A stretch of DNA of 64,000 nucleotides, taken from Acrocarpospora phusangensis. Lineage in GTDB: Bacteria; Actinomycetota; Actinomycetes; Streptosporangiales; Streptosporangiaceae. How positions within the stretch are numbered: the stretch's first letter is position 1; every line of letters starts with the position of its first letter. The stretch is from contig NZ_BOOA01000017.1 in assembly GCF_016862995.1 (NCBI RefSeq), positions 1 through 64,000 of the forward strand. Reading direction: 5' to 3'. The notes under the pieces are model-generated. The model did no database searches and was not told the DNA's origin. It saw only the letters and a list, made by a program, of their open reading frames with translations. The position numbers were made by a program, and so were the translations under genes. Positions 46,020 to 46,187 of the stretch are shown here, one piece after another.

Positions 46020-46187
46020 TCGAGGAGGGCGTCCAGGCCGCACCGCGATCAGCGGGCTGGCCCGGACGGCGATGGTGCCCGTGGAGTTAGAGATCGAGGA
46101 GGGCGTCCAGGCCGCACCGCGATCAGCGGGCTGGCCGGGACGGCGATGGTGCTCGTGGAGTTAGAGATCGAGGAGGGCGTCCAGGCC
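46020..46187. repeat. 74-bp tandem repeats that copy the dapB 3' end
   Basis: The segment TCGAGGAGGGCGTCCAGGCC begins at 46020, 46094 and 46168, exactly 74 bp apart; the third is the real end of dapB. Copies 1 and 2 are nearly identical through the 54-bp spacer. Each keeps the dapB tail: GLDALLDL-stop in the gene and copy 2, GLDALLDI-stop in copy 1. Confidence 0.92.

Follow-up and report, generated by a model that had tools for sequence, protein, structure and literature searches.

Tandem arrays of head-to-tail direct units of ~10–100 bp are classed as minisatellites or VNTRs, and the MIRUs, which are arrays of this type, may overlap stop or start codons. In the MIRU-VNTR loci of Mycobacterium tuberculosis (PMC2734929), units of tens of base pairs are repeated directly in intergenic or gene-edge positions and within one lineage. 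The MIRUs measure 40–100 bp and are scattered over many loci, while the rnc-fpg1 array has composite units, begins 40 bp past a stop codon, and is confined, among the mycobacteria compared, to the M. tuberculosis complex (PMC2734929). A different kind of rearrangement, described mostly from eukaryotes, comprises templated insertions and template-switch duplications, in which a duplicated flank accompanies an insert that resembles a still-present distant locus. REP elements (PMC12306157) are dispersed palindromes located near stop codons. In the literature searched, no title dealt with actinomycete tandem units that extend across a stop codon, which does not establish that such units have gone undescribed.

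Here we analyze a 74-bp tandem array at the 3' end of dapB, a gene of lysine biosynthesis, in the soil bacterium Acrocarpospora phusangensis. It lies in a window of 64,000 nucleotides (positions 1 to 64,000 of contig NZ_BOOA01000017.1), to which all coordinates given without a contig name refer. Like the MIRU-VNTR loci, the array is made of direct units of tens of base pairs, lies at the edge of a gene and occurs in one lineage, and its head-to-tail arrangement makes it an array of the minisatellite/VNTR type. Unlike the MIRUs, its unit is found at one locus, and unlike the rnc-fpg1 array it crosses the stop codon. A search of the genome for MIRU-like dispersal of the unit returned dapB itself and a single gene for an MFS transporter at E 0.001 (40 of 196 candidates scored); with that gene as the sole second match, the unit was rejected as a dispersed element. 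The array shares with templated insertions the duplicated flank and the resemblance of the insert to an extant distant locus, but differs from them in its actinomycete host, in the 37/41 match to its putative source, in weak junction microhomology, and in an apparent later tandem expansion. Its 3'-end position is common to the REP elements, from which it differs in being confined to one locus and direct. The locus is organized as follows.

46161..46898, minus strand: dapB (4-hydroxy-tetrahydrodipicolinate reductase), an intact open reading frame of 245 amino acids with Pfam DapB_N and DapB_C over cut-off
46155..46187, minus strand: copy A, the 33-bp dapB tail in use, with the stop codon at 46161–46163
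46114..46154, minus strand: spacer X, dapB-proximal, 41 bp, matching an MFS gene of the same genome at 37/41 positions
46081..46113, minus strand: copy B, the same 33-bp tail with no difference from A
46040..46080, minus strand: spacer X, distal, with 2/41 differences from the proximal X and a 35/41 match to the MFS gene
46007..46039, minus strand: copy C of the dapB tail, now outside the gene, reading GLDALLDI-TGA, with 4/33 differences from A
45977..46006, minus strand: an 11-bp GC-rich hairpin recognized by folding, a terminator-like stem without a T run, directly after copy C

The encoded DapB is 95% identical to that of Acrocarpospora pleiomorpha. Copy A consists of the final 27 bp of the gene and 6 bp beyond it, and spacer X reads TAISGLAGTAMVLV on the plus strand. 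TRF reports the array at 46020–46187 (period 74, 2.3 copies, 97% matches) with a score of 322, the highest of its 36 rows for the window, and a shift scan, in which the array is again the best in the window, widens it to 46007–46187 (181 bp) at the same period. The resulting order is tail-X-tail-X-tail, with the three 33-bp tails 74 bp apart and a 41-bp X in each interval. The first-pass annotation had described a dapB tail tandemly repeated at 74-bp steps with two copies outside the gene, and TRF, the shift scan and the coordinates all bear this out; the unit, however, which it described as the last dapB codons, is 33 bp of dapB end joined to 41 bp of other sequence. The similarity between the dapB tail and its downstream DNA (score 27) is far from background, as none of 3 × 360 pairings of a tail with the DNA downstream of another gene reached 13, and with the downstream DNA inverted a score of 13 was reached by 1 of 360 tails and 14 by none.

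We favor, with a probability of roughly 0.6, a local rearrangement in two steps, in which a tail duplication with MFS-derived filler was followed by the gain of one unit through slippage. In the first step, during copying or repair of the dapB 3' end, ~33 bp around the stop codon would have been duplicated, with a 41-bp filler copied from the distant MFS transporter gene set between the tail copies, leaving the original end and its hairpin downstream as copy C. The route could have been a template switch or end joining, the latter being available because the genome encodes a Ku protein. Later, in the second step, the direct repeats would have gained one 74-bp unit by slippage or unequal crossing-over; slippage is plausible for this A/B step. 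The 74-bp unit folds better than its shuffles (z −2.78), as does a pair of units (z −3.23), and such a predicted hairpin fold could aid slippage. What allows the array to persist is that the frame, the stop and the protein are all kept when a tandem duplication spans a stop codon, whatever its period. The dapB array is an ordinary and, by its looks, harmless minisatellite-type duplication, real and with a traceable filler, and represents one bacterial micro-duplication whose filler leads back to a likely donor gene.

When X was searched against the 9.11-Mb genome, the one off-locus match at E 0.001 (91% over 44 bp; 40 of 196 candidates scored) fell on contig C114, in a gene encoding a protein that exceeds the Pfam cut-off for MFS_1, and a search of the same genome with a different query stretch gave one extra match of 29 bp (E 6.6e-4). 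Among 297 genomes of the family, the top three matches outside A. phusangensis, in G004 (90%, query positions 25–73), G031 (97% over 35) and G034 (90% over 40), all lie within MFS_1 genes and are read there as AISG(L/F)AGTATVLG, the frame that is also found in X. Judged by sequence similarity, these genes appear to be orthologues of the A. phusangensis MFS gene. Of two weaker matches in G003, that on contig C50 is also in an MFS_1 gene, and at that on contig C8 no MFS gene was recognized. Two differences between X and the A. phusangensis MFS gene are third-position bases at which X has the state common to the G004 and G031 genes, as if X retained an older state of the MFS gene.

In a control with 1000 random 74-bp intergenic pieces, off-locus matches of at least 60 bits were found for 12 and of at least 55 bits for 17, with a median of 29, against 59.9 bits for the X unit; the corresponding numbers for 1000 genic pieces were 11 and 21. 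The control understates chance matches, because the DNA searched (1.26 Mb and one stretch of C114) was smaller than the whole genome. A chance resemblance between X and the MFS gene seems unlikely on these figures. Together, the duplicated tail on both sides of X and the 91% match over 44 bp to a distant locus give the array the configuration of a templated filler. The junctions have about 2–4 nt of microhomology to the source (CC/CCCC) on one side and none that is clear on the other. Copying from the MFS gene is not proven, since the match is short (44 bp), differs at 4/41 or more positions, and has slight, one-sided microhomology.

A simpler history would have slippage alone produce the array, with X being native sequence downstream of dapB and its resemblance to the MFS gene fortuitous. 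Such a history is consistent with the finding that 22 of 29 other non-genic arrays in the A. phusangensis sample have no off-locus match in 1.264 Mb, and an array on contig C9 does resemble a plain duplication of a gene end plus a few bases. However, the off-locus match of X at E 0.001 is an MFS gene, the three best matches in other genomes are MFS genes in the same frame, and off-locus matches as good as this occur in 1–2% of random intergenic pieces. Moreover, X is flanked on both sides by a dapB tail and therefore cannot simply be what followed the gene, unless the native downstream DNA contained such a tail from the outset. We consider slippage alone unlikely.

The copies are not equally diverged. 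A and B are identical over the 33-bp tail and differ at 2/41 positions of the spacer, or 2/74 in total, whereas C differs from A at 4/33 and ends in LLDI instead of LLDL. The inference that the copies are nearly identical and hence recent, made on first inspection, is therefore correct for A and B but fails for C, whose divergence means that the first duplication step was not very recent. Among the best 80 of 197 dapB loci found in relatives, the LDL ending of A occurs in 74 and the LDI ending of C in none. In A. pleiomorpha, the closest relative, the dapB tail differs from C at 4/33 positions and from A at 6/33. Copy C and the hairpin are probably the original dapB end, left behind and freed from coding constraint, and the A/B duplication would be the younger step; this polarity is our inference from one relative, A. 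pleiomorpha, and from the LDI ending. In three other Acrocarpospora species the tail is nearer to A than to C (10 vs 11, 12 vs 15 and 9 vs 10 differences of 33), a pattern that could stem from coding constraint on A, although this is unproven. The differences between copies also bear on the quality of the assembly. The genome is a draft of 219 contigs, and the array may exceed the read length, so that a misassembled repeat might be envisaged; but the copies differ among themselves, by 2/74 and 4/33, and the array is internal to a 126,550-bp contig, which together leave an artefact extremely improbable.

The array was found in this genome only among those compared. No second tail copy (at least 19/24 nt, within 400 bp downstream) was present at any of the best 80 of 197 dapB loci, and the four other Acrocarpospora species (L051–L054) each have a single dapB tail, the comparison comprising five genomes of the genus, one of them from this species. 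A tandem scan of the same best 80 of 197 loci gave one array, of a different kind, in Nonomuraea zeae (L126); it is an independent array with a 14-bp period, extending from the dapB stop codon to about 170–185 bp past it. The restriction to one genome, with none in the best 80 of 197 relatives, argues against a functional array in which a series of 3' hairpins adjusts how stable the dapB mRNA is or how well it is translated, a role that has been proposed for some REP elements. The better-than-shuffled folds of the unit and of the unit pair would fit such a role, and REP elements ≤15 nt from a stop codon are reported to lower translation (PMC12306157); on the other hand, the array has no Rfam match at gathering score. 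We regard a regulatory role as highly improbable, and the analysis gave no evidence for a function of the array or for a mechanism targeting stops or terminators.

The first-pass annotation had further proposed that the array is the same kind of event as a repeat across the stop codon of iclR (stop at 6279). A repeat across that stop codon is indeed present, in the form of a 41-nt stretch repeated at 100-bp spacing with 80% identity. The equation of the two events does not stand, however, because the iclR unit overlaps a dispersed repeat family and is older, whereas the dapB unit does not overlap that family. Downstream of iclR, three copies of this ~90-bp family are found:

6033–6098: first copy of the dispersed family
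6118–6171: second copy of the dispersed family
6214–6277: third copy of the dispersed family

Further members lie on contigs C7, C3, C1, C5, C8, C2 and C9 of the same genome (for example, L184:13946–14062). The family is present in 5/5 Acrocarpospora genomes and in 0/36 genomes outside the genus, and the counts per genome are lower bounds because scoring covered the best candidates only. At every locus sampled, 12/12 in A. phusangensis and 4/4 in G002, the gene end closest to the repeat is a 3' end, and at 13 of these 16 loci it lies ≤40 bp away. In this position the family resembles the REP elements (PMC12306157), and it is possibly REP-like; the copies in the window match no Rfam family at gathering score. 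At dapB, the profile of the family has no match at E 0.1 or better. A stretch downstream of dapB at ~45905–45945, which by eye had been suspected to be a decayed copy, was discarded, as it has no profile match at E 0.1. This genus-restricted family at gene 3' ends, a by-product of the analysis, is a more promising lead than the dapB array and may come to outweigh it. A second dispersed intergenic family was observed at C3:22998–23394, partly tandem with a period of 156 and with matches on contigs C7, C4 and C9; it has one member in the window, near 43017–43117 (C17:43017–43117).

Whether stop codons attract tandem arrays was assessed on 2.46 Mb, consisting of 1.264 Mb of the 9.11-Mb A. phusangensis genome, including the window, together with 0.4 Mb from each of three further genomes, G002 from the same genus, G034 from the same family and G057 from the same class, with genes called by our own codon-usage script rather than a published caller. 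The count covers arrays with periods of at least 40, and so omits the 16-bp array at 24152–24247; the iclR case was not caught either. It gave 118 arrays in the four genomes, of which 46 lie within genes, 56 are intergenic, 15 cross a stop codon and 1 crosses a start codon. One array counted as intergenic, at C7:13940 in A. phusangensis, overlaps the final two bases of a stop codon. Random placement of the 72 non-genic arrays, with gene overlap limited to 60 bp (an arbitrary limit, real overlaps reaching 71 bp), predicts, by arithmetic from the computed placement fractions, ~9 stop-crossers, or ~12 with the addition of placements that span a stop and a start together, against the 15 observed, and ~13 start-crossers against the 1 observed. 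Periods are a multiple of three in 46/46 arrays within genes and in 2/15 of those crossing a stop.

Duplicated gene tails were counted separately. At a score of at least 12, a downstream recurrence was seen for 10 of 360 tails, that of dapB among them, where permutation gave 0.67 and inverted DNA 2; at a score of at least 14 the numbers are 4 and, by permutation, 0. For gene 5' ends, 8 of 574 recur at a score of at least 12, against 2.0 by permutation and 2 inverted, and at a score of at least 14 there is 1 against 0. The first-pass annotation had made its proposal dependent on the presence of tail repeats at other genes of the genome, and such genes exist. The mechanism that it had suggested, in which stops or terminators seed replication slippage and turn the 3' ends of genes into hot spots of duplication, fares less well. 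It can draw on the 15 stop-crossers against ~9–12 expected in the four genomes, on a proportion in G034 (6/20) somewhat above the 12–15% expected, on the array at C7:13940 that starts inside a stop codon and yet was counted as intergenic, on the excess of recurring tails over permutation, and on the strong hairpin after copy C (−24.1 kcal/mol, z −4.64). Yet stop-crossers show no excess in the 1.264 Mb of A. phusangensis itself (3/30 non-genic arrays against 11–15% expected), the asymmetry between stops and starts arises mainly from the absence of start-crossers, and gene starts too exceed permutation at score 12. Seeding at terminators specifically was discarded, as a consensus scan of 45500–46400 found no T-run terminator and the hairpin after C, strong as it is, has no T run. 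Seeding by stops or terminators is very unlikely in our judgment.

Stop codons look tolerated by tandem arrays, not targeted for them. Tail duplications are real and recurrent, and a selection filter is the simplest account of them, because a duplication across the stop leaves the gene unchanged. In-frame periods throughout the arrays inside genes and the avoidance of start codons are the pattern that such a filter produces. Stop-crossing tandem repeats consequently call for nothing beyond ordinary duplication, since at stops a period need not be a multiple of three. A broader speculation, which we think quite unlikely, is that gene 3' ends of GC-rich actinomycetes are mild hot spots, where duplications take up templated scraps of other genes. 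Stop codons would then be a birthplace of new repeats and eventually of new C-terminal or 3' untranslated sequence; dapB would then provide a young case, one whose donor gene can be traced.

Two further arrays of the A. phusangensis sample that cross a stop codon were searched for filler: that on C9 has no off-locus match, and that on C6 has one, of 30 bp (E 9e-4); on these two cases, filler was dropped as a general rule for stop-crossing arrays. The C9 array (C9:74130–74281; L197:14130–14281), in which the final 55–60 bp of a gene recur downstream with a 67-bp period, is the clearest second duplicated gene tail in the sample. In the window, a stop-crossing array of shorter period is found at 24152–24247 on the plus strand, where a 16-bp unit is repeated six times starting at the stop codon of a pectate lyase gene (24156–24158). 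The only Rfam match at gathering score in the whole window is Actino-pnp (RF01688) at 51001–51060 on the minus strand, a leader upstream of a long open reading frame at 48599–51046, minus strand, which we take to encode PNPase.
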